NCBI GenBank assembly: GCA_017383485.1
Contig: JAFNXM010000036.1
Location: 1-64,000, forward strand
Origin: Bacteroidaceae bacterium
GTDB lineage: Bacteria > Bacteroidota > Bacteroidia > Bacteroidales > Bacteroidaceae
Reading direction: 5' to 3'
DNA length: 64,000 nucleotides
The first letter of the stretch is position 1. Every line of letters starts with the position of its first letter. A program made the translations under genes and the position numbers. This document shows positions 10,925 to 58,260 of this stretch, one piece after another. The notes under the pieces were generated by a model, which saw only the letters and a program-made list of their open reading frames with translations, made no database searches and was not told where the DNA came from.

Positions 10925-11008
10925 AAAAAAATCAAGGGCTCGTGAAAATTTTGCGACGGCTCGTTGAAAAAAGCCTAGACCTTTTTTGAACAAGGCCTAG
11001 GCTTTTTT
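10925..11008. repeat. 21-bp phased array, cluster 1
   Basis: Four consecutive 21-bp periods between rnr and rbfA: two with GGCTCGT (one degenerate, one TTGCGACGGCTCGTT) and two of the A/T-tract type (CCTAGACCTTTTTT, CCTAGGCTTTTTT). It is the most diverged of the nine clusters. The remaining 10803-10924 and 11009-11110 show no gene. Confidence 0.75.
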
Positions 11009-11118
11009 ATATCCTGATTTTTGGCGGTTGGTGAGTATGGCGGTTATGGTGAAAATGCCATATTCTCAGAAATGTGAAGTCACTGTGTGGTGAAAAATGG
11101 GTATTCCGACGGAAAAAA

Positions 11119-11149
11119 TTGGGTAGTATGCGAAAAATGTCTACTTTTG
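11119..11149 (+). promoter_or_regulatory. promoter of rbfA
   Basis: -33 TTG (11119-11121) and -7 TACTTTTG (11142-11149) with a 20-bp spacer, about 92 bp upstream of the rbfA start. Confidence 0.65.
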
Positions 11150-11241
11150 CATTGTAATATGGAGTAGTGGGCTCTGGCGCGGCAGGACTCTGATGGAAGA
11201 AGCGGCTTGGGCGGACTACTCGAAGCACTGATACAATATAC

Positions 11242-11577
11242 ATGGATAGTACAAGACAACAAAAAATCTCAAGACTCATTCAAAAGGAATTGAGTGACAT
11301 TTTTCAAAAACAAACCAAGGGTATGCACGGTGTGCTGGTCTCTGTGAGCGCTGTGCGTATCAGTCCTGACCTGAGCGTATGTCGCGGCTACCTGAGTGTA
11401 TTCCCCTCGGAACGCTCGGCGGAAATCTTGGCCAATATCAACAACAATGTGCGCGAATTGCGCTATGAATTGGGCGGACGTCTGCGCCACCAATTGCGCA
11501 TCATCCCCGAGTTGAAATTCTTCGTAGACGACTCGCTCGACTATATCGATCACATCGATTCGCTCTTGGCACAATAA
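11242..11577 (+). CDS. rbfA: ribosome-binding factor A
   Basis: A 111-residue 30S assembly factor that binds the 16S rRNA 5' region during late maturation. The family pattern is clear: RQQKISRLIQKELSDIFQK at the N terminus, VSAVRISPDLSVCRGYLSVF in the KH-like core, then LRYELGGRLRHQLRIIPELKF and FVDDSLDYIDHIDSLL at the end. Its length is normal. It is followed after 42 bp by the permease gene and probably co-transcribed with it. Confidence 0.93.
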   Translation: MDSTRQQKISRLIQKELSDIFQKQTKGMHGVLVSVSAVRISPDLSVCRGYLSVFPSERSAEILANINNNVRELRYELGGRLRHQLRIIPELKFFVDDSLDYIDHIDSLLAQ

Positions 11578-11619
11578 TTCGAACGCGACGACTACGACGC
11601 ACAGCGATTGGTCTCAGGT

Positions 11620-12870
11620 ATGGCATTCCCCTTCTTCATCGCACGGCGCTACCTCTTTTCGAAAAAGAGTCACAACGCTATCAATATCATCTCGGGCATT
11701 TCGGCCGCGGGGGTAGCCTTTGCTGCCGCTGCACTGCTGTGTGTGCTCGGCGTGTTCAATGGTTTTCGCGATTTGATAGGAGGACTTTATACCAACTTCG
11801 ACCCGCAATTGGAAGTGCGCCCCGTCGAGGGAAAATTTGCCGACGCACAGGATCCCATCCTGACCGAAATCTGTAAACAAAAGGAGGTGCAGGCGGCATC
11901 ATACGGCTTGGACGAACTGGCGATGGTACCCTTTCAGGGACGACCCGTGATGGTGCATGTGAAAGGTGTGGACGAGAATTTCCGCCACTGCTCCAATATC
12001 GACAGCATCCTGTACTATGGTGCTAATCCCTATGCCGAATTTGTGCTGCAAGCCGCTGGCGTGGAATATGCCGTGCCCAGCATCGGACTGACTCAGCAGT
12101 TTGGCGGCATAGACTTTCAACCCCTGCCCATCTGTGCGCCGCAGAGTGGCGAGCGCATCAATCTGGCTAATCCGCAGGAGAGTTTTAATATCGAGGAAAT
12201 ACATGCGTCGGGCCTCTTCTTCTACGTGCATCAGAAAACCTACGACGACAATTACCTCATCACTTCGCTGGACTTTGCACAGCGTCTCTTTGACAAGCCT
12301 GGACAAGTCTCCTCTGTCGCCCTGCAACTGCGTCCCGATGCCAATGTCGACGCTGTGAAGGACAGGATGCGCACCGTGGCGAAAGGGAAGTACACCGTGA
12401 ACGATCGATACGAGCAACACCGCGAACTGTTCAACGTGATGCAGATCGAGAAAGTGATGGCGTACCTTTTTCTGACCTTCATCGTACTCGTGGCAAGCTT
12501 TAATATTATTGGTTCGGTAGCGATGCTCATCATCGACAAGCGCAACGATATCGAAACCCTACGCCATCTGGGCGCTTCACCCAGAGATATTGTCCGCATT
12601 TTCTTGCACGAGAGCCGCTTGATTACTCTGCTCGGTGCTGTGATAGGCGTGGCGGTGGGACTGTTGCTCTGCTGGGTGCAAATAGAGTACGGCTTGATCC
12701 GTTTTGGCGGCGCCGAGGGCTCATTTATCATCGATGCGTATCCCGTCAGCGTGCAGTGGACAGACGTTGTCCTGGTCTTCGTCACCGTGATCATAGTGGG
12801 CTTCCTGACGGCATGGTTGCCCGTGAGCTATTTGACCCGCAAAGTGATCGGACAGCGAGACAGCGAATAA
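11620..12870 (+). CDS. LolC/LolE-type ABC transporter permease (FtsX family)
   Basis: A 416-residue inner-membrane protein that probably helps release lipoproteins for transport to the outer membrane. I chose ATG 11620 (MAFPFFIARRYLFSKKSHNA, the usual family N terminus) over a TTG four codons upstream. Topology is one membrane segment at about 20-45, a periplasmic domain of about 210 residues, then three C-terminal segments (AYLFLTFIVLVASFNIIGSVA; LITLLGAVIGVAVGLLLCW; VVLVFVTVIIVGFLTAWL) with the FtsX signature around DIETLRHLGASPRDI. No LolD ATPase is adjacent, which is common in this phylum. Confidence 0.85.
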   Translation: MAFPFFIARRYLFSKKSHNAINIISGISAAGVAFAAAALLCVLGVFNGFRDLIGGLYTNFDPQLEVRPVEGKFADAQDPILTEICKQKEVQAASYGLDELAMVPFQGRPVMVHVKGVDENFRHCSNIDSILYYGANPYAEFVLQAAGVEYAVPSIGLTQQFGGIDFQPLPICAPQSGERINLANPQESFNIEEIHASGLFFYVHQKTYDDNYLITSLDFAQRLFDKPGQVSSVALQLRPDANVDAVKDRMRTVAKGKYTVNDRYEQHRELFNVMQIEKVMAYLFLTFIVLVASFNIIGSVAMLIIDKRNDIETLRHLGASPRDIVRIFLHESRLITLLGAVIGVAVGLLLCWVQIEYGLIRFGGAEGSFIIDAYPVSVQWTDVVLVFVTVIIVGFLTAWLPVSYLTRKVIGQRDSE

Positions 12871-12944
12871 ACTATCCTTTGCCTCTCGCAAAAAAAGTGT
12901 GCAAAAATTCAGCGCAAATATATTCTACTATATAGGAAGTTTTG

Positions 12945-12952
12945 TAACTTTG
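12945..12952 (+). promoter_or_regulatory. -7 promoter element of mdh
   Basis: TAACTTTG about 110 bp upstream of the mdh start. The resulting leader of about 100 nt begins with a minimal ORF of eight codons (12961-12987, MDLRHQRP), whose relevance is unknown. Confidence 0.7.
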
Positions 12953-13060
12953 CAAAAAGAATGGACCTACGGCATCAACGCCCTTGATTCGCAGGTATTA
13001 TTTAATAGAAAAAGACAAGAAAAACAATAGTATAAACCTTTTTATAAAACAAGAAAAATT

Positions 13061-14056
13061 ATGGCTTTTTTGACAGACGAAAAACTCGTGATCGTTGGTG
13101 CCGCTGGTATGATTGGCTCTAACATGGTACAGTCTGCCCTGATGATGGGATTGACTAGCAACATCTGCCTCTTCGACGTATTCTCACCCGAAGGTGTTGC
13201 AGAAGAAATGCGTCAAAGCGGTTTTGATGATGTAAACATCACTGCTACTACCGACGTGAAGGAAGCTTTCACTGGCGCTAAGTATATCATCTCTTCAGGT
13301 GGTGCTCCACGTAAGGAAGGTATGACTCGCGAAGACCTCCTCGCTGGTAACTGCAAAATCGCTGAAGAACTCGGTAAGAATATCAAGGCTTATTGCCCTG
13401 ACGTGAAGCACGTAGTGATTATCTTCAACCCTGCTGACTTGACAGGTCTCGTGACTTTGCTCTACTCTGGTTTGAAGCCAGGCCAAGTGACTACTCTCGC
13501 TGGTCTCGACACTACTCGTCTCCAAAGCGCATTGGCTAAGAAGTTCGGCGTAATGCAAAACGAAATCACTGGCTGTGCTACATACGGTGGCCACGGTGAA
13601 CAAATGGCTGTATTCGGTAGCGCTGTGAAGGTAGCAGGCAAGCCTTTGAACGACCTCATCGGTACTGCAGAATTCCCAGCTGAAGAATGGGAACAAATGA
13701 AGAAGGACGTGACTCAGGGTGGTGCTGCTATCATCAAACTCCGCGGTCGCTCTTCATTCCAAAGCCCATCTTACCTCTCAGTAGAAATGATTCGCTCGGT
13801 AATGGGTGGCGCTCCTTTCCGCTTCCCTGCTGGTACATACGTTTGCAACGAGAAGTACAACCACATCATGATGGCTATGGACACAGTGCTCGACCAAAAC
13901 GGTTGCACATACAAGATGCCTGTGGGTACAGAAGAAGAATTGGCTAAGCTCGACGCTTCTTACGAACACCTCTGCAAGATGCGCGACGAACTCGTGACTT
14001 TGAACATCGTTCCAGCTATCGAAAAGTGGGGCGAAATCAACCCAAACTTGGCTTAA
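13061..14056 (+). CDS. mdh: malate dehydrogenase (NAD-dependent)
   Basis: A 331-residue cytoplasmic enzyme that interconverts malate and oxaloacetate, in Bacteroidales usually within the reductive branch leading to fumarate and succinate. Visible are the dinucleotide-binding glycine motif (VIVGAAGMIGSNM), the mobile-loop region with GGAPRKEGMTREDLL, FNPADL, the substrate-binding LDTTRLQSALA, and the catalytic His in TYGGHGEQM (His178). The sequence follows the LDH/MDH superfamily throughout. Codon use is strongly biased (GGT, AAC, AAG, CTC), as in other probably highly expressed genes of this window. It is monocistronic, with its own promoter and a strong terminator. Confidence 0.94.
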   Translation: MAFLTDEKLVIVGAAGMIGSNMVQSALMMGLTSNICLFDVFSPEGVAEEMRQSGFDDVNITATTDVKEAFTGAKYIISSGGAPRKEGMTREDLLAGNCKIAEELGKNIKAYCPDVKHVVIIFNPADLTGLVTLLYSGLKPGQVTTLAGLDTTRLQSALAKKFGVMQNEITGCATYGGHGEQMAVFGSAVKVAGKPLNDLIGTAEFPAEEWEQMKKDVTQGGAAIIKLRGRSSFQSPSYLSVEMIRSVMGGAPFRFPAGTYVCNEKYNHIMMAMDTVLDQNGCTYKMPVGTEEELAKLDASYEHLCKMRDELVTLNIVPAIEKWGEINPNLA

Positions 14057-14068
14057 TATAAGGTCAAA

Positions 14069-14112
14069 ATAAAAGAAGTGGACACATCGCATGGTGTGTC
14101 CACTTCTTTTAT
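14069..14112. terminator. bidirectional Rho-independent terminator after mdh
   Basis: A perfect 18-bp stem (starting ATAAAAGAAGTGGACACA) with an 8-base loop. The A-rich 5' arm and T-rich 3' arm let it work on both strands. Confidence 0.92.
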
Positions 14113-14122
14113 GTGTATATCC

Positions 14123-14264
14123 GAGGTGCCTTTAAGATGAGGTAAGGTTTCTGTAGGACGAGGTGAGATGTCTATAAGATAAGGTAAAGCATCTTTTCGG
14201 CGAGGCGAGGTGTCTACAATTCGAGGCAAGGGGGCTGCAAGTCGAACCAAGGCGTCTATAACGC
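14123..14264. repeat. degenerate 21-bp tandem array after the mdh terminator
   Basis: Six successive 21-bp units at 14139, 14160, 14181, 14202, 14223 and 14244, preceded by a shortened unit at 14123. Each follows the pattern GAGGYRAGGTGTCTRTAAG with substitutions. On the minus strand the frame stays open and reads as heptapeptides such as LAAPLPR, IVDTSPR, LIDISPR, but there is no gene-like start or conserved product. The period and placement (directly after a terminator) match the other 21-bp arrays of this window. Confidence 0.8.
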
Positions 14265-14332
14265 GCCGCAAAACCTTTTTGGAAAAGATAGAGGTGTCGT
14301 TGTGACGAGTCGGGAGAACGGGCGCAGAGGGT

Positions 14333-14737
14333 TTATTCTGCAGCCTTCGCCGCTTCGGCTTGTTCCCAGGCTTCCCACTCCTTCATCACCGCTTGCCAGT
14401 CGGTTTGTTCATTTTGTTCGATAGCTTCTGCCTGGCGTGCTTCTTCCTCGGCCGCACGTGCTGCTTCGTCGCGTGCTTTGTCTCGTGCACGCTTTTCCTT
14501 CATTGCTGCGATGGTCGCTTCGTCCAGGATTTTTATGGCGCCGCGACGGATAGCCGCTTCAAGGTCTTCGGGTCCGAATGCTTTGCCCTGTACGTTGTAG
14601 TCCGAGATGTTGAATTCGAAGTTCACGCGGAGTTTGTGGCGCACTTGTTTCTGCTGAAAGCGCGTGCCGGCGTTCTTCAATCGGAGGAGTTTGCTGATGA
14701 TTTCGATTTCTCTTTGCGAGAATTTATTTCTTCCCAT
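14333..14737 (-). CDS. conserved small Bacteroidales protein of unknown function
   Basis: A 134-residue cytoplasmic protein. The ATG at 14737 gives MGRNKFSQREIEIISKLLR, which I recall as a conserved N terminus in Bacteroidales hypotheticals; the longer frame starts upstream of the promoter at 14767-14775. The first 75 residues look like a folded domain (RHKLRVNFEFNISDYNVQGK, FGPEDLEAAIRRGAIKILD). The rest is an Ala/Glu/Arg-rich probable coiled-coil tail. No function can be assigned. It lies downstream of the Sel1-repeat gene on the same strand but has its own promoter. Confidence 0.7.
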   Translation of the reverse strand: MGRNKFSQREIEIISKLLRLKNAGTRFQQKQVRHKLRVNFEFNISDYNVQGKAFGPEDLEAAIRRGAIKILDEATIAAMKEKRARDKARDEAARAAEEEARQAEAIEQNEQTDWQAVMKEWEAWEQAEAAKAAE

Positions 14738-14766
14738 ATACTTTTTGCTTTCTATCAATTGCGGGT

Positions 14767-14775
14767 GCAAAGGTA
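14767..14775 (-). promoter_or_regulatory. -7 promoter element of the small conserved gene
   Basis: TACCTTTGC on the minus strand, 30 bp upstream of the chosen start. It supports initiation at 14737 rather than at 14797. Confidence 0.6.
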
Positions 14776-14801
14776 CGAATTTCTGTACAAACGGCAAGGC
14801 G

Positions 14802-15794
14802 TCAGTCCGTCATACCCGTAGCCTCTTGTGCTTCGACGTGGCCCATCTCTGCTGCTTCCTTCAGTAGTGAGTCGGCCTGTGCCTTATCCTTGTCCACGCC
14901 CAATCCGCGGCTGTAGCACAGGGCCAGGCGGTATTGCGCTTCGGGGTAACCTAGTGCTGCGGCTTGCTTGTACCATTCGATGGCGATCGAGTCATTTTTC
15001 TCCACACCAAATCCATCTTCGTGATACACGCCCAGATTGTATAGTGCTCGGGCATCTCCTTGTGCTGCGGCCTTTTTGTACCACTCGATGGCCTTGGCTG
15101 GATCCTGTGCCACGCCTAGTCCCAGTTCGTAGCACACGGCCAGATTGTATTGTGCCAGTCCGTTGCCCTGCTGAGCCGCTTTTTCGTACCATAAGAAGGC
15201 TTGTTCGTAGTCGTGATCAAAGCCTTCGCCCTGGGAATAGCACACGGCCAGATTGTATTGTGCCAGTTCGTTGCCCTGCAGTGCTGCCTTGGCATACCAT
15301 GCCGCCGCCATCACGCTGCTTTGCTCCACGCCGTTGCCACGCTCGTAGCACAGGGCTAGGGTAAACTGCGCCTCGGGCAAACCGGCTTCTGCTGCCTTCG
15401 TATAGAGTGCGACGGCCTGTGTGTAATCCTTGGGAATACCCTCGCCGTAGTAGTAGCAATTGCCCAGAGCCAGTGCCCCCTGAGTGTTGCCTTGCTCTGC
15501 AGATTTTCTGAACCATTTGACTGCCTCAGTTTGGTTCTGTTTTATGCCTTTCCCTTCAAACAATAGCATGCCCCATGCGTGTTGTGCTGCGGCATTGCCC
15601 ATGCGTGCGGCCTTTTTATAGGCGTCTGCAGCCTCGGCGATTTGTCCTTTTTTCTCCAGCTTTTGAGCTTTTTTGAAAAGCTCTTCTCCTGCTACAGACG
15701 AGGTCCCGTAACTCATCAGATAGAATACAGCGCCGAGTAGCGCTATCAGGGCTAAGCTGATGATAGTAGCCCATTTCTTTGAAGGACGTTTCAT
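14802..15794 (-). CDS. Sel1-like (TPR-type) repeat protein with N-terminal membrane anchor
   Basis: A 330-residue protein with one N-terminal transmembrane segment (WATIISLALIALLGAVFYLM) after a basic MKRPSKK, then seven full and one partial Sel1-like repeats of 36 residues. Each repeat carries the A..WY.KAA..G...AQY.L...Y..G.GV pattern. Sel1 repeats form an alpha solenoid for protein-protein contacts, so this is probably a periplasm-facing scaffold; partners are unknown. The DNA repeats are similar enough to open long antisense frames, which are not genes. A -7 element TACTTTTG lies at 15818-15825 on the minus strand. Confidence 0.85.
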   Translation of the reverse strand: MKRPSKKWATIISLALIALLGAVFYLMSYGTSSVAGEELFKKAQKLEKKGQIAEAADAYKKAARMGNAAAQHAWGMLLFEGKGIKQNQTEAVKWFRKSAEQGNTQGALALGNCYYYGEGIPKDYTQAVALYTKAAEAGLPEAQFTLALCYERGNGVEQSSVMAAAWYAKAALQGNELAQYNLAVCYSQGEGFDHDYEQAFLWYEKAAQQGNGLAQYNLAVCYELGLGVAQDPAKAIEWYKKAAAQGDARALYNLGVYHEDGFGVEKNDSIAIEWYKQAAALGYPEAQYRLALCYSRGLGVDKDKAQADSLLKEAAEMGHVEAQEATGMTD

Positions 15795-15817
15795 AGTAAA
15801 CGGATTTAATGTTCCCC

Positions 15818-15825
15818 CAAAAGTA
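15818..15825 (-). promoter_or_regulatory. -7 promoter element of the Sel1-repeat gene
   Basis: TACTTTTG on the minus strand, 24 bp upstream of the start codon at 15794. Confidence 0.55.
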
Positions 15826-15900
15826 GGTAGAAAATCCGAGTGTGCCAAGCATTTTGCTTATTTTAATATAAGTGTGCGGCTGGTGGCAGCTTGTCACAAC

Positions 15901-15933
15901 AAAAAAGTCCCGCAAACCTTTCGATTTGCAGGA
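15901..15933 (-). terminator. terminator of tRNA-Asn
   Basis: On the minus strand CCTGCAAA pairs with TTTGCGGG (one G-T pair) around an 8-base loop, followed by A, C and six Ts. It begins 16 bp after the tRNA. Confidence 0.85.
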
Positions 15934-15948
15934 CTCATGCCTTTTTGG

Positions 15949-16022
15949 CGCTTCAGGATGGGCTTGAACCAACGACCCCCTGATTAACAGTCAGGTGCTC
16001 TAACCAACTGAGCTACTGAAGC
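15949..16022 (-). tRNA. tRNA-Asn (anticodon GTT)
   Basis: A 74-base cloverleaf. The acceptor stem GCTTCAG/CTGAAGC is perfect and the discriminator base is G. The D arm is AGCTCAGTTGGTTAGAGC, the anticodon loop is CTGTTAA with anticodon GTT, and the T arm contains GGTTCAAGCC. CCA is not encoded. Confidence 0.95.
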
Positions 16023-16063
16023 AAGTTTGGGAAAATTCCCGTGCATTTCTCAGAATTGCTGTG

Positions 16064-16094
16064 CAAAAGTAATGGTTATTTTTGAAATACACAA
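16064..16094 (-). promoter_or_regulatory. promoter of tRNA-Asn
   Basis: On the minus strand, -33 TTGT (16091-16094) and -7 TACTTTTG (16064-16071) with a 19-bp spacer, about 42 bp upstream of the tRNA. Confidence 0.7.
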
Positions 16095-16234
16095 TACATT
16101 TGGCAGAAAAATGATAAAAAAATGATATTCTGCCCCGATTTTTTCACTACAGCCTCTGCGATTTGTCCCAGAACAGGTCTTTTGTGTGATAGAAAAGCGC
16201 TGCTCTCGCCCCTGTTTTTTTGTTGTTGAAACGA

Positions 16235-16316
16235 ACCAAGACCTTTTTCAAAAAACATTAGACCTTTTTTTAACGAGGCGTCGCGAAATTTAAAAAAGGT
16301 CTTGACTTTTTTCAAA
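16235..16316. repeat. 21-bp phased array, cluster 2
   Basis: Inverted orientation: two A/T-tract units, one AACGAGGCGTCGCGAAATTT unit, then another tract unit (AAAAAAGGTCTTGACTTTTTT). It lies between the divergent tRNA-Asn and purD. A minus-strand frame of 84 codons over it reads as heptads (KFRDASL, KKGLMFF, EKGLGSF) but is a by-product of the 21-bp period. Confidence 0.85.
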
Positions 16317-16344
16317 GGGTTTTCCTTCATAGAAAAATTGCTCT

Positions 16345-16600
16345 CTTGATTCGCTTTCGCTCACCCAAGATAGGCTGCGGTTAATCCCTCTACGAGGGCT
16401 TTTCCTCCTTCGCACCTCGGCAAAATTAAGTGAACTTATTTTGCTCTCGGTTTGTCGTCGGTTCGGAAATACTCAAATAAATTTGGCATTTCGCTCGCCT
16501 TGCACTACTTTGCTTGCGCCAAGATAGGCTGCGGCTCGGGATAAAAAGTGAAATTCTTCGATTTTCCCTTTGTTCTCCGCTCGCCTTGCACTATCTTTGC
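16345..16600 (+). promoter_or_regulatory. purD leader with repeated promoter-like modules
   Basis: Three related modules precede purD. The first (16348-16380) holds TCGCTTTCGCTCACCC then AAGATAGGCTGCGG. The second (16489-16534) holds TCGCTCGCCTTGCACTACTT, then TGCGCC and again AAGATAGGCTGCGG. The third (16579-16600) holds CGCTCGCCTTGCACTATC and continues into the promoter, -33 TTTG (16569-16572) and -7 TATCTTTG (16592-16599) spaced 19 bp. Only the third is a good promoter. The rest look like duplicated promoter relics or regulatory copies. No gene is present. Confidence 0.6.
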
Positions 16601-16625
16601 TCCTAAATTCTAAAAAATAAGAAAT

Positions 16626-17891
16626 ATGAAACTTTTACTCCTTGGAAGTGGCGGACGCGAACATGCGTTGGCTTGGAAGATTGCTCAAAGTCCTAAAGTG
16701 GAAAAACTCTATATCGCACCAGGTAATGCCGGTACATCGGAAGTGGGCGAAAATGTGGCGATGAAGGCGGACGATTTCGACGCTATCGCTGCTTTCGTGC
16801 TCGACAAACAAGTGGATATCGTGGTCGTAGGCCCCGAGGATCCATTGGTCAAGGGTATCGTGGACTACTTCAAGGCCAACGAGGCTGTGCGCCATATCCC
16901 CGTCGTGGGACCTTCGCAAGAGGGGGCACAACTGGAGGGTTCGAAGGACTTTGCCAAGGCTTTCATGAAGCGCCATAACATCCCTACTGCTGCCTATGCT
17001 ACATTCGACGGCACACAGGTAGAGGAGGGTTGCCAATTCCTGGAAACGCTGCAAGCACCCTACGTGCTCAAGGCCGACGGTCTGTGTGCGGGCAAGGGTG
17101 TACTGATCCTGCCCACACTGGAAGAAGCCAAGGCGGAATTGCGCAATATGCTCGGCGGTAAGTTTGGCAACGCTTCTTCGCGTGTAGTGATCGAGGAGTT
17201 CCTGGACGGTATCGAGTGCTCGGTGTTCGTATTGACCGATGGTAAGCACTACCAGATTCTGCCCGAAGCTAAGGACTACAAGCGTATCGGCGAGGGCGAC
17301 ACTGGCCTGAACACCGGCGGTATGGGTAGCGTGACTCCCGTGCCTTTCGCTACTGAGGCATGGATGAAAAAGGTCGAAGACGAAATCATCCGCCCCACTG
17401 TCGAAGGTCTCGATCAAGAGGGTATCGACTACAAGGGCTTCATCTTCTTCGGTCTGATCAACTGCGACGGCCAACCCAAGGTGATCGAATACAACTGTCG
17501 TATGGGCGACCCCGAGACAGAGACTGTGATGCTGCGCTTGAAGAGCGACCTGGTAGACCTGTTCGAAGGTGTAGCAGTAGGCGACCTGGACCAACGCACC
17601 GTAGAGTTTGACCCCCGCGCCGCAGTCTGTGTGATGTGTGTATCGGGCGGTTATCCCGGTGACTACGAAAAGGGTTTCCCTATGAGCAATCTGCACCCCG
17701 AGGGCTGCATCGTCTTCCACGCTGGTACGGTGGAACAGGATGGTCAGGTGTTGACCTCGGGCGGTCGCGTCATTGCTTCATGTGCTTACGGTCAGGACAA
17801 GGCCGAGGCGCTGGCTACCGCAATGCGTGGCGCACAGGAAATACAGTTTGAAAAGAAATACTTCCGTCGCGACATCGGACAGGATTTGTAA
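16626..17891 (+). CDS. purD: phosphoribosylamine--glycine ligase
   Basis: A 421-residue cytoplasmic enzyme for step 2 of purine synthesis (phosphoribosylamine + glycine + ATP to GAR). The N-terminal GARS domain starts [19 protein letters not shown], followed by IAPGNAGTS and VVGPEDPL. The ATP-grasp core is seen in [48 protein letters not shown] and [18 protein letters not shown]. The C-terminal domain has [12 protein letters not shown]. Length is normal. It is apparently monocistronic, far from other pur genes in this window, with an elaborate leader and its own terminator. Confidence 0.95.
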
Positions 17892-17941
17892 TTGACAGTC
17901 CGTCGCACCGAGAACGACGTCGCACAGGCGTAGATGATAAA

Positions 17942-17992
17942 TAACGTAGGGCAGATCGAGCGGAATGAGTTTCTGCCGACGCCCTATGTTTT
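17942..17992 (+). terminator. terminator of purD
   Basis: ACGTAGGGC pairs with GCCCTATGT (one G-T), with an inner GGCAGA/TCTGCC stem, followed by a T-rich tail. It lies about 50 bp after the stop codon. Confidence 0.75.
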
Positions 17993-18166
17993 CTTGTTTT
18001 TACAGGGTCTTTGTCATTGCGCGTCTAAGCATGGAGGCATTCGCCCTCCCCTACTCCGCTTTGTTCAGTTTGTGCTCGGCGCTTCGTGTCCTTTACTTAC
18101 ACGACAAAATAGCAGCGCAACGCATTTATCAATATAACATAGAAATTCCACACTATCCTATCTATT

Positions 18167-19117
18167 ATGGCACGTCCCAACCTTCGTTCGCGCATCGTGA
18201 CGGGTACTTTCACCCTGCCGGCAGTGGCTGCATTTGTAGCCTTGCTGTGGTTGGTGCATGGCGTGCTTGATGGAAAGTTTTGGGCGGGTCTTGGCGCCAC
18301 AGCGGTGATCACTTACCTTTTGGTCGAACTCAACAACCGCAATGCCTTGCTGCGCATTCGCTCGCGTATGATGGGTTGTACTTTCCTCGTGCTTTATTCC
18401 GCTTTGCCCTTTCTGCACGACTGGGATGTGGGATATATTGTTGCGGGCAGTTTGCTGATGTCATATTTCACCCTGTTTGCTTCCTATGGCGAGTCGCGTA
18501 ATAGTGGCAGAATCTTTTATGCTTTCGCCTTTGTGGGATTATCCAGCCTGTTCTATCCACCCTATGCGCTCGTGGCGTTGGCTTTTTTTGTCAGCATGCT
18601 GTTTCAATTGCGCATACTCACGGTTCGCAACTTTTGGGCGTCGCTATTTGGTTACGTGCTGCCTTATTGGTTGGTTGGCGCTTGGCATCTGTGGCAAGGC
18701 GACTTTATGGTGTGGGTAGCATCCTTGTTGCAGAGTTGGCACTTCGCCCTGCCTCACCTCGCAGAACTACCTGCACATGTATTGGGTGCTTTTGTCGTGG
18801 TAGCAGGTCTGACCTTTATCGCCATGATACACTACAAGAATACGGCGTACAACGACAAGATCAAAGTACGTATGTTCTTCTACACCATTATTACGGTCGA
18901 GGTGCTCCTCCTCCTGGGTTGTGTATTTCTGTCGTCAGACCACGATATTTTGCTACGCCTGCTTGCGCTCAACAGTGCGCCGCTCCTGGCTCATCATCTC
19001 TCGTTGGCGCGTGGCAGAGGTTCAGATATTTGGTTTTACACCAGCCTGTGTATCATCATTGCCCTGGGCATATTTAATTACTTCGGACTATGGAGCAATT
19101 TGTTCAACTTCTCATAG
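18167..19117 (+). CDS. multi-pass inner-membrane protein of unknown function
   Basis: A 316-residue hydrophobic protein with roughly eight to ten membrane segments, for example LPAVAAFVALLWLVHGVL, FWAGLGATAVITYLLVEL and YALVALAFFVSMLFQLRIL. A basic N terminus (MARPNLRSRIV) and loops such as RNALLRIRSR fit a cytoplasmic start. I recognise no catalytic motif and cannot assign a family with confidence. Its last 28 bases overlap the downstream YqaA-like gene, which points to translational coupling and a shared membrane role. The region 17993-18166 upstream shows no clear promoter or gene. Confidence 0.75.
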   Translation: MARPNLRSRIVTGTFTLPAVAAFVALLWLVHGVLDGKFWAGLGATAVITYLLVELNNRNALLRIRSRMMGCTFLVLYSALPFLHDWDVGYIVAGSLLMSYFTLFASYGESRNSGRIFYAFAFVGLSSLFYPPYALVALAFFVSMLFQLRILTVRNFWASLFGYVLPYWLVGAWHLWQGDFMVWVASLLQSWHFALPHLAELPAHVLGAFVVVAGLTFIAMIHYKNTAYNDKIKVRMFFYTIITVEVLLLLGCVFLSSDHDILLRLLALNSAPLLAHHLSLARGRGSDIWFYTSLCIIIALGIFNYFGLWSNLFNFS

Positions 19118-19539
19118 AATGGGGCCCACTGGGAATGTTCATAGCAGCATTTCTGGCGGGAAGTGTAGTACCATTCAGTTCCGAATTAGTAATGCTCGGA
19201 TTATTGGCGACAGGTGTGTCACCGACAGCCCTACTGGTCTGTGCAACTTTGGGTAACTTCCTGGGCGGTATGTTCAACTATTTCGTAGCTTCGTTTGGCA
19301 AGGAAGAATGGATCACCCGCTTTATTAAAATAGAACCAGAGAAATTAGAGCGAGGGTTAGGCCAAGTGCGACGATATGGTGCTTGGATGGGATTGCTCAG
19401 TTGGGTGCCTGTGCTCGGAGAAGTAGTCTGCGTGGCGCTGGGCTTCATGCACGTCAATATATGGAAGTCTATGGCGACGATAGCCCTTGGCAAATACGTG
19501 CGCTATCAGATCCTGCTCTCAGCCTATCTCATGGTATAA
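19090..19539 (+). CDS. YqaA/DedA-like (VTT domain) membrane protein
   Basis: A 149-residue inner-membrane protein of the SNARE-associated/VTT family, some members of which scramble or transport phospholipid carriers. Conserved features are GPLGMFIAAFLAGSVVPFSSE, where E. coli YqaA and DedA relatives have the same proline/glutamate, then TLGNFLGGMFNYFVASFGK, and near the end a WVPVLGEVVCVALG re-entrant-like segment and KYVRYQILL. It starts inside the previous gene (28-bp overlap). The downstream zinc-binding lipoprotein begins 62 bp later. Confidence 0.85.
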   Translation: MEQFVQLLIEWGPLGMFIAAFLAGSVVPFSSELVMLGLLATGVSPTALLVCATLGNFLGGMFNYFVASFGKEEWITRFIKIEPEKLERGLGQVRRYGAWMGLLSWVPVLGEVVCVALGFMHVNIWKSMATIALGKYVRYQILLSAYLMV

Positions 19540-19601
19540 ACGATAATAAAAGACTTCTTGCAAATAGAGAAGATATAGATCACAATAAATCAGATTTAGT
19601 T

Positions 19602-20507
19602 ATGAAAAAGTCTATGATGCAAAACACAATATCACGCTCCCTGCGTATCCTGTCAAGGGTTTGTTTCATCCTGCCGTTGGCAATGCTCCTCGTGACGTCG
19701 TGTGGTCCGAAGAAGAAGGTGGAAAATAATACCATCTTGGTCAGTATTGAACCCTTGCGCTATGTTACGGAATATTTGGTGGGAGGTAATTTCAACGTGG
19801 AGTCGATCACACCACGCGAAGCTACGCCTGAAACCTACGCCCCAACGGTGCAGCAGATCAAGGCTATTGATGAATGTCTCGCTTTCGTACGTGTGGGTTC
19901 TTTGGGCTTTGAAAATACACAAATTCGCAAGGTGACAGACAATTCTCCGCACCTTTATATCATCAATGCGGCGGCAAATACAAAAAAACTGCCGATGTGT
20001 GACCACGATCACGGAGATGGACACCACGGGGGTGAGGATCCCCATATCTGGATGTCTCCTCGTAATATGAAAATCATTGCGCTGAACGTCTACAAGCAGC
20101 TTTGTTATCTCGATCAAAAGAATGCGGAGTCTTATAAAGAACGTTTGTTGAAATTTTCAAATGAAATGAACGAATTAGATAGCTTGACGCACGAAAAACT
20201 GGATACCTGCAAGAACAAAGCCTTCCTCATCAATCACCCAGCTTTGGGACATTATGCTTGTCAGTACAACTTGATACAAATCAGTATGGAGCATGATGGC
20301 AAAGAGCCTTCTCCAAAACAACTGGAAGCTGTTCTGGAAAGATGCAGGACACATGGCGTGAAAAAAATCTTTGCGCAAGAACAACATAGCGATAAGGGCG
20401 TGAAGCGTGTAGCAGAGGAATTGGGTGTAGAAGTACACTATATCAATCCGCTGTCTTATAATTGGAAGGAAGAGGTCGAACGTATTACGCAAATCCTGAT
20501 AGAATGA
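19602..20507 (+). CDS. metal ABC transporter substrate-binding lipoprotein (ZnuA/TroA family)
   Basis: A 301-residue periplasmic lipoprotein that probably captures zinc or manganese. ATG 19602 gives a signal with lipobox-like LLVTSC; the longer frame runs back through the yqaA-like gene and is rejected. Family marks are ILVSIEPLRYVTEYLVGG, TPETYAPTVQQIKAI (where ZnuA often has a metal-binding His, here Tyr), the His-rich loop CDHDHGDGHHGGEDPHIWMSP, NHPALGHYACQYNL, and EQHSDKGVKRVAEELG. The ATG of the ATPase gene overlaps its TGA. No permease (ZnuB) gene is adjacent, which is odd for this class. Confidence 0.85.
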   Translation: MKKSMMQNTISRSLRILSRVCFILPLAMLLVTSCGPKKKVENNTILVSIEPLRYVTEYLVGGNFNVESITPREATPETYAPTVQQIKAIDECLAFVRVGSLGFENTQIRKVTDNSPHLYIINAAANTKKLPMCDHDHGDGHHGGEDPHIWMSPRNMKIIALNVYKQLCYLDQKNAESYKERLLKFSNEMNELDSLTHEKLDTCKNKAFLINHPALGHYACQYNLIQISMEHDGKEPSPKQLEAVLERCRTHGVKKIFAQEQHSDKGVKRVAEELGVEVHYINPLSYNWKEEVERITQILIE

Positions 20508-21145
20508 CAGCACCACTGCTACGTCTGGAAAATATCACGGCTGGCTATGATCAAAAGATAGTACTGCGCGATGTCACACTGTCCGTTCTGCCCACAGATG
20601 TATTTCATATTTGTGGGGCAAATGGAGGGGGAAAAAGTACGTTGCTACGCATCATGACTGGTTTGATGAAACCTCTGTCGGGTCAGGTCTATCGTGCGAA
20701 AAACTGTACCTTGGGTTATCTGCCGCAATACAGACAAATCGACCGCCAATTCCCTATCTCTGTGCGCGAGACTATACTGTCGGGGCTAAATAGCAAGAAG
20801 TCCTTTTGGCAAGGTTTTTCTGCTGAGATGCAAGAGCAGGCCGCCGAGATCATGCAACGCTTTGGCATCGCAGCACAAGCCGACCGCCCCATCAGTGACC
20901 TGAGCGGCGGACAATGGCAGCGCACCCTGATCGCCCGCGCCCTGGTCTCCAATCCCGATGTATTGATCCTGGACGAACCAGATACTCATCTGGATAGAGA
21001 GGGTAAAGCTTTCCTGCAAAAAGTCCTTGAAGCCGAGGCCGAACGCCGTGCCATAGTGATAGTGAGCCACGACCACGATTTCCTGCCCCAGACGGCAAAT
21101 TTACGACTCCTTTCTGTGCGCGATGGTGGTCTGCATGCGCATTAG
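20504..21145 (+). CDS. ABC transporter ATPase, ZnuC-like
   Basis: A 213-residue cytoplasmic nucleotide-binding subunit. The start overlaps the upstream stop codon (ATGA), so the two genes are translationally coupled. Visible are Walker A GANGGGKST, the Q loop (LGYLPQY), signature LSGGQWQR, Walker B VLILDEPDTHLD and the switch SHDHDF. Sequence and neighbour support a zinc/manganese importer. It needs a membrane partner, which is not encoded before the next gene (tRNA-Gln). The permease must lie elsewhere or be replaced by another transporter. Confidence 0.85.
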   Translation: MTAPLLRLENITAGYDQKIVLRDVTLSVLPTDVFHICGANGGGKSTLLRIMTGLMKPLSGQVYRAKNCTLGYLPQYRQIDRQFPISVRETILSGLNSKKSFWQGFSAEMQEQAAEIMQRFGIAAQADRPISDLSGGQWQRTLIARALVSNPDVLILDEPDTHLDREGKAFLQKVLEAEAERRAIVIVSHDHDFLPQTANLRLLSVRDGGLHAH

Positions 21146-21288
21146 CAATCCTATTTGGTGTGTGGATTAAGGTATAGATAAAAATGGTGAAAACAGATTT
21201 TTTCTGTCAAAATAGAGGCACTGTGAGATAGAAATAGGACCATTTTGATACGAAATTACATAGAAAATGCATTTTTTTTATGTTTTTT

Positions 21289-21319
21289 TTTGCGGGAATA
21301 AAAAAAGTTAGTACTTTTG
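21289..21319 (+). promoter_or_regulatory. promoter of tRNA-Gln
   Basis: -33 TTTG (21289-21292) and -7 TACTTTTG (21312-21319) with a 19-bp spacer, 32 bp before the tRNA. The stretch 21146-21288 is AT-rich with no gene. Confidence 0.75.
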
Positions 21320-21351
21320 CATCGTCTTCTAACGAGGACACCTATTAAGTT

Positions 21352-21423
21352 TGGTCCATGGTGTAATGGTAGTCACAACAGGTTTTGGTTCTGTTAGTCT
21401 AGGTTCGATCCCTGGTGGACCAA
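21352..21423 (+). tRNA. tRNA-Gln (anticodon TTG)
   Basis: A 72-base tRNA with perfect acceptor TGGTCCA/TGGACCA and discriminator A. The anticodon loop contains TTTTGGT, giving anticodon TTG, and the T arm contains GGTTCGATCC. CCA is not fully encoded. Confidence 0.94.
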
Positions 21424-21435
21424 CAAAAGATTTAG

Positions 21436-21477
21436 CGAGTTTCGAGTTCTGATGAGCGCGAAGCTCGTTTTTCTTTT
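21436..21477 (+). terminator. terminator of tRNA-Gln
   Basis: CGAGTTTCG pairs with CGAAGCTCG (one G-T) and is followed by TTTTTCTTTT, 12 bp after the tRNA. Confidence 0.8.
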
Positions 21478-21556
21478 ATGCAGTTGAAGGCAATAATTTA
21501 ATCGTATCAGTAGCCTGCTGCGCCTTTGCAATATCCTGAAATCAAATTCCCCAACC

Positions 21557-22081
21557 ATGCAATTACGCCTCTCTCACGAATTTCGCATAGACACTGCGCT
21601 GCTGCAATTGCAGTTTGAGCGTGGTGTGGCCGATGTGGGACAATTGCGCCGCCAGGGCAGTCGTATCACCGTGATACTGCCGCGCGATTTCGATTTTGCC
21701 AATCCTGTGGCGCACCAGTGGGCATATCGTGTGCTCTGTGGCGTACTGCGCGCCGAAGCCAAGCGCATCTTGCCCGCCAAGGTCAGCACCTTCGCCCGAC
21801 AATACGACTTGCGCTACAATCGCGTAGTGATCAAGGACGTTTCGACACGCTGGGGCAGTTGTTCGTCGCTGGGCAATATCAACCTTTCGCTTTGGCTGCT
21901 GCTCGCGCCCGAAGACTTGGTCGACTACGTGGTCAAGCACGAATTGGCGCACCTCAACGAGATGAATCACGGTCCAAGATTTTGGGCAGAAGTCGACCGT
22001 ATGACGGGCGGCCCGGGTACGGGCAAGGCCCTCGAGCGCAGGATGAAGGCTTTTGCGCGGACTTTGTCACGAGTGCGATAG
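21557..22081 (+). CDS. YgjP-like metal-dependent protease/hydrolase (DUF45)
   Basis: A 174-residue cytoplasmic protein of the YgjP/DUF45 family, related to SprT and M48-type zinc peptidases. The C-terminal half has the full family signature: STRWGSCSSLGNINLSLWL, then the zinc site KHELAHLNEMNHGPRFW (HELAH at about 128-132). The third ligand His lies in NHG. The N-terminal half is shorter than in many homologs but contiguous. The physiological substrate is unknown. It appears monocistronic, followed by a 21-bp repeat array. Confidence 0.85.
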   Translation: MQLRLSHEFRIDTALLQLQFERGVADVGQLRRQGSRITVILPRDFDFANPVAHQWAYRVLCGVLRAEAKRILPAKVSTFARQYDLRYNRVVIKDVSTRWGSCSSLGNINLSLWLLLAPEDLVDYVVKHELAHLNEMNHGPRFWAEVDRMTGGPGTGKALERRMKAFARTLSRVR

Positions 22082-22144
22082 GCTTTGAAAAAGCCTTGGC
22101 TAAATCAATTGTTCGCACGGCACGTATTGCCCTCAAAAAAAGTA

Positions 22145-22255
22145 AAGACCTTGTTGAAAAAAGCCTTAACCTTTTTCAAAAAACATTAGACCTTTTTTTA
22201 ACGAGGCGTCGCGAATTTTCAACGAGGCGTCGCGAAATTTTTTGCAAGGTCTTGG
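22145..22255. repeat. 21-bp phased array, cluster 3
   Basis: Inverted orientation: three A/T-tract units (AAGACCTTGTTGAAAAAAG, CCTTAACCTTTTTC, CATTAGACCTTTTTTT), two AACGAGGCGTCGCGAATTTT units, then a partial tract unit. It fills most of the gap between the YgjP-like and MG2-like genes. Confidence 0.85.
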
Positions 22256-22319
22256 GAGGTTTTCAGGAGATTTTTCTTAACTTGCGCAGGATTTTTCTTT
22301 TGCTAAATATCACTATAAT

Positions 22320-25043: not shown

Positions 25044-25178
25044 AGGCGCCTTATCATCAGTTCTATTATTCCCTTTATCACGTAAAATACAGGAAAAATC
25101 CTTTTCACAACATCCCTTTCTGTGAAAAAAAAGAAAACAGAAAATGCCGCAGAGGTTTTTTTACCGAAAAGAAAAACG

Positions 25179-25186
25179 TAACTTTG
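25179..25186 (+). promoter_or_regulatory. -7 promoter element of the DUF2851 gene
   Basis: TAACTTTG, 24 bp upstream of ATG 25211. It overlaps the longer TTG start at 25184, which is therefore rejected. Confidence 0.65.
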
Positions 25187-25210
25187 TCCAAATTTAATAA
25201 GGCCAAATTT

Positions 25211-26503: not shown

Positions 26504-26598
26504 CTCTTGACGTTTGATAAAATCCGCCTTTTCTCTTCTTAAACAGAAGTGATCTCGTGGCTGTTTTCTCTTAATAATTACTATAAAAATCTGCTCAA

Positions 26599-27009: not shown

Positions 27010-27066
27010 TCCCTGTTCTACCCTGTCCCCTCCCTGAAATTTTGAAATCAAAGCATCTTCTTAGTC

Positions 27067-28158: not shown

Positions 28159-28186
28159 GTCTTTTTGATGTAATACTTAATAACAG

Positions 28187-28225
28187 AGGAACCTGTTGAT
28201 ATTCAGTGGGTTCCTTTTCTTTTTT
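28187..28225 (+). terminator. terminator of dprA
   Basis: AGGAACC pairs with GGTTCCT over a 15-base loop and is followed by TTTCTTTTTT. Confidence 0.75.
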
Positions 28226-28245
28226 CAAAGACTCAGAAACGCCTT

Positions 28246-28332
28246 GGAAATTTCGCGACGCCTCGTAAAAATTTCGCGACGCCTCGTTTAAAAAAGGTCT
28301 AGGCTTTTTTTCACAATGTCTTGACTTTTTTC
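28246..28332. repeat. 21-bp phased array, cluster 4
   Basis: Forward orientation: two AAATTTCGCGACGCCTCGT units 21 bp apart, then AAAAAAGGTCTAGGCTTTTTT-type and TGTCTTGACTTTTTT units. It lies between the dprA terminator and the mnmG promoter. The long minus-strand frame across it (28097-29107) is not a gene. Confidence 0.87.
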
Positions 28333-28404
28333 TCTCTTTTCGGGGTGAGGGAAACTTCTCAACGAAACCCGTCTCAAAATGCCCTTTTTCGCAAAAAAAA
28401 TGTG

Positions 28405-28412: not shown

Positions 28413-28432
28413 CACCATAAAATCAAACTATT

Positions 28433-34965: not shown

Positions 34966-35055
34966 AAAAATTTCGCGACGGCTCGTTAAAAAAAGGTCTA
35001 ATGTTTTTTGAAAAAGGTTAAGGCTTTTTTCAACGAGGTCTAACCTTTTTTCGCA
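34966..35055. repeat. 21-bp phased array, cluster 5
   Basis: Four successive units in exact 21-bp register: one AATTTCGCGACGGCTCGTT unit, then three tract units containing GGTCTAATG, GGTTAAGGC and GGTCTAACC between A-runs and T-runs. It lies between the convergent deoC and ispB genes and shows most clearly that both unit types share one period. Confidence 0.88.
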
Positions 35056-40076: not shown

Positions 40077-40228
40077 AAAAAAGTCAAGGCCTTGTGAAAA
40101 TTTCGCGACGCCTCGTTAAAATTTCGCGACGGCTCGTTAAAATTTCGCGACGGCTCGTTAAAAAAAGGTCTAATGTTTTTCAAAAAAGGTTTAGGCTTTT
40201 TCTGACGAGGCGTCGCGAATTTTTTTTG
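40077..40228. repeat. 21-bp phased array, cluster 6 (largest)
   Basis: About seven units: a degenerate leading unit, three AAATTTCGCGACGSCTCGTTA units in exact 21-bp spacing, two A/T-tract units (GGTCTAATG and GGTTTAGGC), and an inverted GACGAGGCGTCGCGAATTTT unit at the end. It occupies most of the gap between the AEC transporter and the TPR/HTH regulator. Confidence 0.9.
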
Positions 40229-47330: not shown

Positions 47331-47440
47331 AAAAAAAAGCCTGATGTTTTTTGAAAAAGGTCTAATCTTTTTTTAACGAGGCGTCGCGAAAATTCAACGA
47401 GGCGTCGCGAAATTTTTACGAGCCGTCGCGAAATTTTCAG
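47331..47440. repeat. 21-bp phased array, cluster 7
   Basis: Inverted orientation: two A/T-tract units (GCCTGATG, GGTCTAATC), then three consecutive 21-bp units containing AACGAGGCGTCGCGAAAATT, AACGAGGCGTCGCGAAATTT and TACGAGCCGTCGCGAAATTT. It lies between floA and the SDR gene. The rest of 47171-47715 holds a terminator, a C/T-rich stretch and the SDR promoter, but no gene. Confidence 0.9.
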
Positions 47441-54365: not shown

Positions 54366-54466
54366 TGAAAATTCCGCGACGTCTCGTTGAAAAAAGGTCT
54401 AACCTTTTTGAAATTTCGCGACGCCTCGTAAAAATTTCGCGACGCCTCGTTTAAAAAAGGTCTTGG
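54366..54466. repeat. 21-bp phased array, cluster 8
   Basis: One TTCCGCGACGTCTCGTTG unit, a tract unit with a perfect small hairpin AAAAAGGTCTAACCTTTTT, then two TTTCGCGACGCCTCGT units and a partial tract unit. It separates the two sialidase genes. The rest of 54225-54667 holds a terminator and a promoter, with no gene. Confidence 0.88.
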
Positions 54467-54573: not shown

Positions 54574-54667
54574 TGGCGGAGTATGTCCAAATGTGAGGCA
54601 GCTTTGTCCAATGCGTTTTTAATCGAAACCAAAATAATTTTATCCCTAATTAATCTATTTCCCTTTT

Positions 54668-57600: not shown

Positions 57601-58033
57601 TGTAGCTGCACTCCTGCTCGAAGAAGTAGAGACAGGTCTTGTTCCCGCAAATACACCTGTAGTCTTGACTGCAGAAGCTGGTCAATATGCGCTCGAAGTC
57701 GTTTATCCTGCAAACTCGGCAGCACTCGACGTGATCGAGGGTTGGAAGGGTACGCTCAAGTTTGACAACGTCAGCGACAACGTGTTCGTGCAAGATGGCG
57801 ACAAGATGGTGAAGAACACTGGCACCAGCATCTGGGCGAACTCGGCTTACTACGTAGGCGATGCAAGCGTGGATAGCTACGCGTTGAGCTTTGAAGGCAG
57901 CATCGAAACCAGTATCAATGGTGTAGAAACAGTGAAGAAGAACGTGAAGCTGTACGACCTGAACGGACGTCGCGTAGTGAAACCTGGCAAGGGTATCTAT
58001 GTGACAGAGGAAGGCAAGAAGGTGCTGTTTTAA
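54668..58033 (+). CDS. exported GH33 sialidase, paralog 2
   Basis: A 1121-residue tandem paralog of the gene at 50856, with the same domain order and a signal peptide (MRNFYRILSLAVFAVATLSA). Residues 1 to about 340 and the lectin-like region after about 790 are nearly identical to paralog 1. The catalytic domain differs much more: the arginine motif is YRIP (Arg352), three Asp boxes are clear (STDNGKTWG, SYDNGVTWG, SDDFGGTW), and the loop with GDPCLVADSESE differs. The nucleophile region is LGSAYSTMCW. The C terminus again looks like a type IX sorting domain (VKLYDLNGRRVV). The two enzymes probably differ in linkage or substrate preference (inference). Confidence 0.9.
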   Translation: MRNFYRILSLAVFAVATLSAWAAVPFKTTSIVGGKFAANTTWYTMQIGTNQHIISDNAGASKISLTKVMTDMSDADLWCFVGDDTNGYKIYNKQAGTGKVLASSSSMKAMAGYGGTGGSTYPTMQDASNLPSGYIGTWDIRSSDKLAGVDGYFVILHGTNYAMNNFGGIGDLAFWAEGMDAGSTVSFGFAEGQIEINAANGTFTASNANKTWHAVWESNQLAGFSLSTGQNNMTTDGGYIAAHSGTSYSCTHTLTAPQGMCIAGYSFDMKNRNGDNSYSENIVIGSKTYKSSASSQHVEVTGLEDRTASFQQTGANKGVIFSNYYVTLRRSTVVPEAQYEVFTTTSTSVPYRIPAIAKAKNGNLIAVADYRHSGADIGMATNGRIDIHGRISTDNGKTWGNIFPIIEGQGAAAAQNNSMYVAFGDPCLVADSESETVMMFTCSGNVSFPNGQRNNHQGIARFYSYDNGVTWGKPVDISESIYSQFDKRADGGIRCMFIGSGKISQSKTLKVGSHYRLYCAPLVKLANGSNVNFVLYSDDFGGTWKVLGGVENSPIPSGGDEPKADELPDGSVLVSSRTSGGRIYNIYRYTDAAKGEGSWGNAAWSNSSNNGTTAVSNSTNGEIMFVPVRRLEDDKKMYMMLQSVPLGSGRANVGIYYKALESLADFSSPENIAKDWDGRHQASYLGSAYSTMCWQADNTIAFLFEEETHCNTSRGGYTIVYKNYSIEDITDGAYTYDATSLASDVVINGIDARKVEAGSYVGGYLPEAVEAVNQAIEDYKANPSRAAYEAINKMLTTVPTIQVEPGHWYRLRNTERASATLYMTPEATRFTAKVADNADADQMFQFAATGTAGQYYLYNGNFGLYLGKLGANETQPSLHVAPTDAGVWSIVTSGDGKCQVNCVNKTGSNPGLHLAGDNTRLVPWASNAPASLWYIEPVTTYPVTVGESGYATLNLPFAVQVVDGVKAYVPAQATEVNGVAALLLEEVETGLVPANTPVVLTAEAGQYALEVVYPANSAALDVIEGWKGTLKFDNVSDNVFVQDGDKMVKNTGTSIWANSAYYVGDASVDSYALSFEGSIETSINGVETVKKNVKLYDLNGRRVVKPGKGIYVTEEGKKVLF

Positions 58034-58063
58034 TATTCCAAGGAAATACAAATGAATAATATC

Positions 58064-58097
58064 AACCGCTCGTGTCTCTGTGACGCGGGCGGTTTTT
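58064..58097 (+). terminator. terminator of sialidase paralog 2
   Basis: AACCGCTCGTGTC pairs with GACGCGGGCGGTT (mismatches in the middle), followed by TTT. About 30 bp after the stop codon. Confidence 0.75.
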
Positions 58098-58163
58098 GGT
58101 TTCTTGTACTGCCTACCGCCAAACAGTTAGACACGAAACAGTATATCCTCTCTCAAAAAAGAT

Positions 58164-58260
58164 AAGACCTTGTGAAAATTTCGCGACGTCTCGTTGAAAT
58201 TTCGCGACGTCTCGTTGAAAAAAGGTCTAGGTTTTTTTAACAAGGTCTAACCTTTTTTCG
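58164..58260. repeat. 21-bp phased array, cluster 9
   Basis: A leading tract unit, two AAATTTCGCGACGTCTCGTT units 21 bp apart, then tract units GGTCTAGG and GGTCTAACC with A/T arms. It lies between sialidase 2 and the susC promoter. The remaining 58261-58429 shows nothing recognisable. Confidence 0.88.

Follow-up and report, generated by a model that had tools for sequence, protein, structure and literature searches.

Dispersed repeats in bacteria are usually defined by their sequence. The nine arrays that lie in a 64,000-nucleotide stretch of a Bacteroidaceae genome (the window) represent a kind of repeat in which the letters change and the period stays constant across much of one genus. Such arrays pose the question of what fixes a length without fixing the letters, for which a protein lattice, a copying machine and inheritance are the candidate answers. 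The species specificity of the sequence, as against the sharing of the period by the genus, is not visible from the window alone, and the arrays are followed here through the source genome, a sister species and the wider genus.

Anatomy of the arrays and their register

A sequence-only reading of the window had described nine clusters built from two unit types, R and K, and all nine are present at the positions it gave (Table 1). Its estimate of about 19 R copies agrees with the count obtained when up to 3 mismatches are allowed, 19 in the window where 0.13 would be expected; none of 100 dinucleotide shuffles reaches that number. Both orientations occur, as it had claimed, even within one array (40101-40159 on the plus strand and 40204-40220 on the minus strand). 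TRF reports a tandem array with a period of 20-22 at all but one of the nine clusters; the one it leaves out, 16235-16316, has a single R. A typical array runs in the order L-R-K, with one to four R units and one to three K units; L, with which many arrays open, is an inverted relative of K. As an example, the L unit AAAGTCAAGACCTTTTTT stands ahead of R and a GGTCTTGAC unit behind it. ORFs of the window include those with DNA polymerase I, UvrC, FloA, GidA/MnmG and PurD domains, and the contigs therefore look like ordinary chromosome. Several window ORFs of at least 80 aa overlap arrays and are presumed to be spurious.

Table 1. Positions, orientation, make-up and surroundings of the nine arrays of the window (G001, sister species)
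Array	Position	Strand	Units	Surroundings and G001 slot
1	10925..11008	+	L-like unit, single R (10949-10965, 2 mismatches), two K-type units	
2	16235..16316	-	L, R (16272-16288), K, K	upstream of ORF 16626-17891 (phosphoribosylglycinamide synthetase domains, PurD); G001 slot also array-bearing
3	22145..22255	-	R, R, K, K, K	
4	28246..28332	+	R, R, K, K	upstream of ORF 28433-30310 (GidA/MnmG domains); separate terminator-like hairpin 28185-28217 precedes array
5	34966..35055	+	R, K, K, K	
6	40077..40228	+	L, R, R, R, K, K and inverted R (40204-40220, -)	
7	47331..47440	-	R, R, R, K, K	downstream of ORF 46175-47170 (FloA); array present there in G001 as well
8	54366..54466	+	R, K, R, R, K	fewer recognisable R and K units in G001 slot
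9	58164..58260	+	L, R, R, K, K	second R position (58200) is a K-like unit in G001

The sequence-only reading also implied further copies in the genome, spaced by multiples of 21 bp, and both expectations are borne out. With up to 2 mismatches allowed, R matches the source assembly (1.68 Mb in 39 contigs, 63.55% complete) 221 times, compared with 1 for a reversed-pattern control. A 464-kb sample, consisting of the window and 20 stretches of 20 kb from contigs already showing R, contains 76 R/K clusters, of which the 66 measuring at least 35 bp were kept and the 10 shorter ones left out; detection used R/K-like units only, and clusters less than 60 bp apart were merged. Neighbouring R units in this sample (up to 3 mismatches, same-strand pairs only) lie 21 bp apart in 48 cases, 42 bp in four and 22 bp in one. 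The common register proposed for R and K is evident in the R-to-K offsets, 171 of 180 being 0 mod 21. K-to-K offsets follow the same rule in 55 of 67 cases, and the remaining 12 are one base off.

Variation among 122 R units from 67 arrays falls chiefly at positions 4, 11, 17 and 18, with C the commonest letter at position 11 in the source genome (77/122); positions 4 and 17 show no stem-like covariation in a search for base-pair covariation inside R. Two R units differ on average by 1.73 letters within an array and by 2.44 between arrays, so that units from distant loci are almost as similar as neighbours. The left and right halves of the K core share inverted vocabularies (cosine 0.63; controls 0.00), an overlap due in part to the presence of the same unit in both orientations. 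Strict palindromy of all units was considered and is not general, with p<0.05 in 6 of 25 typed units. An apparent deficit of perfect K palindromes (1/86 versus 11.8) was set aside, as it hinged on defining half-sites by 4 letters. Relative to GC skew, R orientation divides into 74 against 48 units, a weak and non-independent bias.

Turnover of units in the sister species and the genus

Unit R was found in the source species and in its sister G001, which carries 55 copies when up to 1 mismatch is allowed, 29 of them with T at position 11. The same search returned none in 35 other genomes of the genus and none in 24 genomes of other families. A wider contig scan gave, among the matches listed, single R matches in unrelated genomes, which are probably due to chance.

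Both flanks of 21 source clusters are represented in the G001 sample; with one paralogous locus and one chance site in coding DNA set aside, 19 are usable, and all 19 carry R or K in G001 as judged by permissive pattern matching (up to 3 mismatches) with a visual check for part of the loci. A seeming empty site, L098:5592, proved to be a paralogous locus. In the reverse direction, 13 of 13 G001 arrays (of 46) are matched by a source array, largely at the same loci. Alignment gaps of at least 5 bp at six cleanly aligned loci measure 21 bp (four) or 42 bp (two), with one further gap of 20 bp beside an array; all 21 alignments, poor ones included, contain many further gap sizes. Between source and sister, slots are thus kept, and whole units are gained, lost or exchanged. 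Substitutions amount to 0.103 in arrays and 0.200 in adjoining DNA, the arrays being lower at 17 of 19 loci; at nine hand-picked, cleanly aligned loci the values are 0.038 and 0.095, with arrays lower at eight. This low divergence could reflect gene conversion instead of selection, or in part the low complexity of A/T-rich units.

The period extends well beyond this pair of species. Intergenic autocorrelation peaks at lag 21 in 8 and at lag 22 in 3 of 18 other genomes of the genus, and at neither lag in any of 12 genomes from other families. A stricter count, scoring gaps in which at least 16 of 21 letters are repeated at a given lag, makes lag 21 or 22 the sole top lag in 13 and a joint top lag in 5 of 24 other genus genomes (1.28 Mb). 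Among 409 gaps, 68 score at lag 21, 18 at lag 22, 29 at lag 42 and 13 at lag 44, compared with 0 to 11 at any lag outside 20-23 and 42-44. The small other-family control (12 genomes, 192 kb, 62 gaps) gives one gap at lag 21, none at lag 22 and two, from a single genome, at lag 23. Samples ranged from 5 to 100 kb per genome, and several genus genomes owe their result to one or two gaps. G018, with top lag 42, and G013, with top lag 44, are consistent with the lattice; no convincing lattice was found in the sampled gaps of G004, G005, G034 and G035, and the signals of G017, G012 and G034 resemble heptamer repeats.

The units that occupy this lattice differ from species to species. In G016, half-sites (ACAAGT, CTATCG and CTGGGA among them) flank a central TAG, and A/T linkers are present; the unit occurs 216 times in G016 (up to 1 mismatch), and of 37 other genomes of the genus 5 have one match each, its reversed control giving single matches in 2 genomes. 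The G011 unit, AACTTAGTCTGAGTAAGTT, is found 397 times in its own genome at up to 2 mismatches and once in one of 37 others. In G033, searched on its own, the unit CTCCSACGTTTTT has 160 exact copies against 2 for the control. G020 and G008 carry GCAAGCACTGC and AAACGCCTTGC units, G027 carries AATTGCATAATGC-like units, and G007 has 22-bp units centred on CCCTAGGG. Spacing among the matches listed is regular throughout: 21 bp in 11 of 11 same-strand neighbours of G016, multiples of 21 in 19 of 19 cases on both strands of G011, and multiples of 21 in 39 of 39 clustered sites of G033. Opposite-strand neighbours listed for G016 lie 43 bp apart in 15 of 17 cases, with one at 22 and one at 65; the 43-bp inverted pair represents the same L-centre-K order as in the source genome and G020.

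Each species thus has its own short-unit vocabulary, and the 21-bp (or 22-bp) lattice is present in most species sampled. Between species, the unit sequence is almost wholly replaced. The description of the arrays is firm for the source genome and its sister, and a lattice of other units across much of the genus is well supported. Conservation of individual slots over longer distances is unconvincing from the three genes examined. Upstream of mnmG, 28 listed entries include a TRF array of 21-22 bp in G000, G001, G030, G008 and G020, and among 17 entries listed downstream of floA an array is present in G000 and G001 only. A TRF array upstream of mnmG in G007 appears coding. Array units can serve as species-specific sequence markers, and the series of species is suited to tracing the concerted evolution of dispersed bacterial DNA.

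Placement among genes and candidate explanations

The sequence-only reading placed every array outside genes. With a crude caller and ORFs of at least 450 bp, this is true of most arrays, and 2 of 66 fall mostly inside an ORF, with 4 left unassigned; the number inside ORFs rises to 8 of 66 when ORFs from 300 bp are admitted. The interpretation of the open frames as heptapeptides, which the same reading had raised, gains no support from this placement. The 464 kb contain 145 gaps no shorter than 120 bp, and 60 of these hold an array, one each and never two, where random placement weighted by gap length yields a mean of 11.6 gaps with at least two arrays and a minimum of 5 in 5000 trials. The result is similar for ORFs from 300 bp (55/142 gaps, none double; simulated 10.1) and from 600 bp (2 arrays in ORFs; 59/137 gaps, none double), and an array-aware caller that drops ORFs below 1000 bp over arrays gives 62 of 144 gaps occupied. 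For the R/K detection used, the source species has at most one array per gap.

Arrays show no clear preference for gene orientation: occupancy is 35/93 in codirectional, 12/27 in convergent and 13/25 in divergent gaps. With the array-aware caller, orientation relative to transcription in codirectional gaps is 18:17, and median distances to the upstream and the next gene are 96 and 162 bp. Because convergent, codirectional and divergent gaps all carry arrays, the arrays are not terminators, and an intrinsic terminator array positioned after genes and along transcription is rejected on the 18:17 orientation and the 13 of 25 divergent gaps.

The explanation given most weight, held tentatively and at somewhat less than even confidence, is that the arrays form a class of dispersed intergenic repeats, present in much of one genus, that act as a two-turn protein-binding lattice and spread in the manner of REPs. 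The arrays would act as DNA, with related sites recurring on the same helix face every two turns, often as inverted pairs. A candidate dimeric chromosome-organising or boundary protein could bind these sites cooperatively; a protein-binding or insulator array, suggested already by the sequence-only reading, is the mechanism favoured here and a possible one, its protein being putative. REP-like spread and homogenisation between loci, by copying or gene conversion, would make the unit sequence diverge between species, and the lattice would be retained because binding needs in-phase sites. A fixed period can also be inherited from an ancestral tandem array, however, and helical phasing is therefore not proven.

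That inheritance is central to a credible, if somewhat doubtful, alternative, in which the arrays are selfish or neutral REP/MITE-like minisatellites, copied by a putative transposase or by gene conversion, enlarged by slippage and devoid of host function, with a period carried over from their ancestor. The hundreds of dispersed, near-identical units and the unit-sized indels relative to G001 are consistent with such an origin, as is the precedent of BrickBuilt (PMC4596501). So too is the inclusion of 10 of the 76 clusters in two families of multi-copy elements about 360 bp long, family A with 6 copies and family B with 4; their ends are sharp, and in family A there are direct repeats at both ends. 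Against this reading, no inverted ends (by eye) or target duplications were recognised, all 19 orthologous slots are filled, with no empty site seen, and no gap holds two arrays where about 12 such gaps were expected. Array-rich G016 and G011 are without Y1 transposase matches, both genomes being incomplete.

A more specific version of the protein-binding lattice, considered unlikely, is that the DNA specificity of a chromosome-organising protein has been re-targeted from one species to another, hundreds of intergenic sites changing in concert with the two-turn spacing fixed. If true, such a re-targeted lattice would be a bacterial counterpart of fast-evolving satellite or hotspot systems.

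Action at the RNA level, as tandem hairpins that end transcription or shield mRNA ends, is improbable. K does resemble an A-run, hairpin and T-run, and on each strand the mean fold z is strongly negative in G020 (5 arrays), G011 (3), G013 (2), G007 (1) and G008 (1); the G016 array L300:8270-8380 is a nearly perfect single long hairpin with z -12.9. Mean z is moderate in G003 (5 arrays); in G006 (3), G010 (1), G017 (1) and G004 (1) it is either close to zero or positive, and the arrays of G006, G010 and G017 fold no better than shuffles. The source arrays fold mildly, at mean z -2.14 and -2.06 on the two strands (51 arrays) compared with -0.86 (sd 1.75, n=80) in control stretches, and three window arrays folded as DNA give -1.62, 0.04 and -1.15. 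The even orientation with respect to transcription and the occupancy of divergent gaps, at least as high as elsewhere, do not fit RNA elements, nor do the separate terminator-like hairpins (partly identified by eye) that precede some window arrays. A terminator scan of 10000-29900 found 19 sites, compared with 22.8 in shuffles.

The phased curvature raised by the sequence-only reading, with A and T runs returning every 21 bp, is very improbable, as predicted curvature is ordinary (13.1 versus 12.4 degrees per turn in shuffles, with 41 of 66 arrays above their own shuffle mean, in a wedge model) and the A/T content of units varies widely among species.

Relation to known repeat families

No described family matching the arrays was found in searches of open-access literature, which yielded analogues only. 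Comparison of one array with plasmids and phages and of the R pattern with viral contigs gave no relative, and the window has no Rfam match at gathering thresholds; the sequence-only reading, which knew of no such family, is upheld within these collections. The nearest known kinds are REP/BIME repeats and BrickBuilt, and most of the REP hallmarks that were tested are lacking.

REPs measure 20-40 bp, mostly end in GTAG or CGTC tags, rarely or never form head-to-tail dimers in most genomes, and lie mainly between convergent or codirectional genes; RAYT genes have REPs or other terminal repeats on either side (PMC2817692, PMC3733652). The arrays resemble REP/BIME elements in their more than 100 copies, intergenic location, species specificity, regular spacing and inverted pairs, and in the quasi-palindromic nature of some units. 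They differ in that head-to-tail runs at 21 bp are common (the 48 same-strand R neighbours), that divergent gaps are used as often, and that R, by inspection, has CGTC within the 21-bp unit instead of at its end, where CGTC REPs carry it unpaired. Unlike RAYT-linked (GTAG) REPs, they also lack a RAYT-like gene with two inverted cognate units at its flanks: the sole such gene found, the Y1_Tnp ORF 3988-4443, is flanked by GC-rich repeats of about 70 bp and no R site. Y1_Tnp matches occur in 12 of 23 genus genomes and in none of G016, G011, G001 and G003, an absence that is no proof, as these four genomes are 74-90% complete. A RAYT-driven REP origin is unsupported by the Y1_Tnp distribution and flanks.

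The other close analogue comes from Porphyromonas gingivalis, which belongs to the Bacteroidales, as does the source organism. BrickBuilt is a minisatellite-MITE with 23-nt tandem units, 19 copies and IS5-like inverted ends, in which unit number differs between strains and one copy sits after an intact terminator (PMC4596501). An 8-mer, AAAGGTCT, is common to K and the BrickBuilt ends and may be a chance match. The arrays share with BrickBuilt tandem units of similar length, intergenic location, species restriction, imperfect repetition and, sometimes, inclusion in a leader-tail element: families A and B, with their 10 of 76 clusters, resemble the BrickBuilt leader and tail, whereas the other clusters have no such element that could be seen. 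Terminal inverted repeats and target duplications, by contrast, were not recognised in the arrays. Here unit copies run to the hundreds, some 40% of the longer gaps hold an array, and several unit types share one register, with an inverted L-K order. The arrays also depart from BrickBuilt in that their sequence is replaced across a genus at a nearly constant period.

Elements enclosing 21-bp arrays

Six elements of ~360 bp (family A), each with a 21-bp array, are bounded by direct rather than inverted repeats, and four elements of ~365–390 bp (family B) also each enclose an array. Judged by eye, family B is a distant relative of family A. Tandem arrays with a 23-bp period and a ACAAGCTTGT-like centre occur in G054, a genome from another family of the same order, in which the unit is present in only seven copies, at two loci.

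Locations of array-bearing elements (window's own genome) and 23-bp arrays (G054)
Feature	Location
Family A	L098:9928-10287
Family A	L098:16322-16687
Family A	L099:5997-6356
Family A	L101:4772-5140
Family A	L111:17685-18045
Family A	L116:16138-16505
Family B	L113:11298-11684
Family B	L113:19294-19681
Family B	L114:5891-6259
Family B	L115:3693-4057
23-bp array	L184:8231-8298
23-bp array	L184:9647-9736

Unit orientation and neighboring sequence

Across the window and its genome's stretches L098–L117, 74 R units (one of the two array unit types) follow the sign of local GC skew versus 48 against it, counts in which units are not independent of one another; a weak replication-strand bias in R orientation is possible. 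Near two arrays, the sister species' genome (G001) carries additional insertions of ~100 bp and ~340 bp, devoid of array units, at window positions of about 54583-54603 and 16310-16380 (compared with stretches L119 and L041). Separately, TRF identifies an imperfect 108-bp tandem duplication (15072-15279) within a minus-strand ORF (14802-15848).

A RAYT-like locus

The window also contains a RAYT-like Y1 transposase (3988-4443, minus strand), flanked by several GC-rich palindromic repeats of ~70 bp each (3570-4800) that contain the sequences CCCAGGGTGTCGTCTCAC...CCCTGGGC and GCCCTTTCAGGGC. Transposase and repeats apparently constitute a REP/BIME system, distinct from the 21-bp arrays with which it shares the window.
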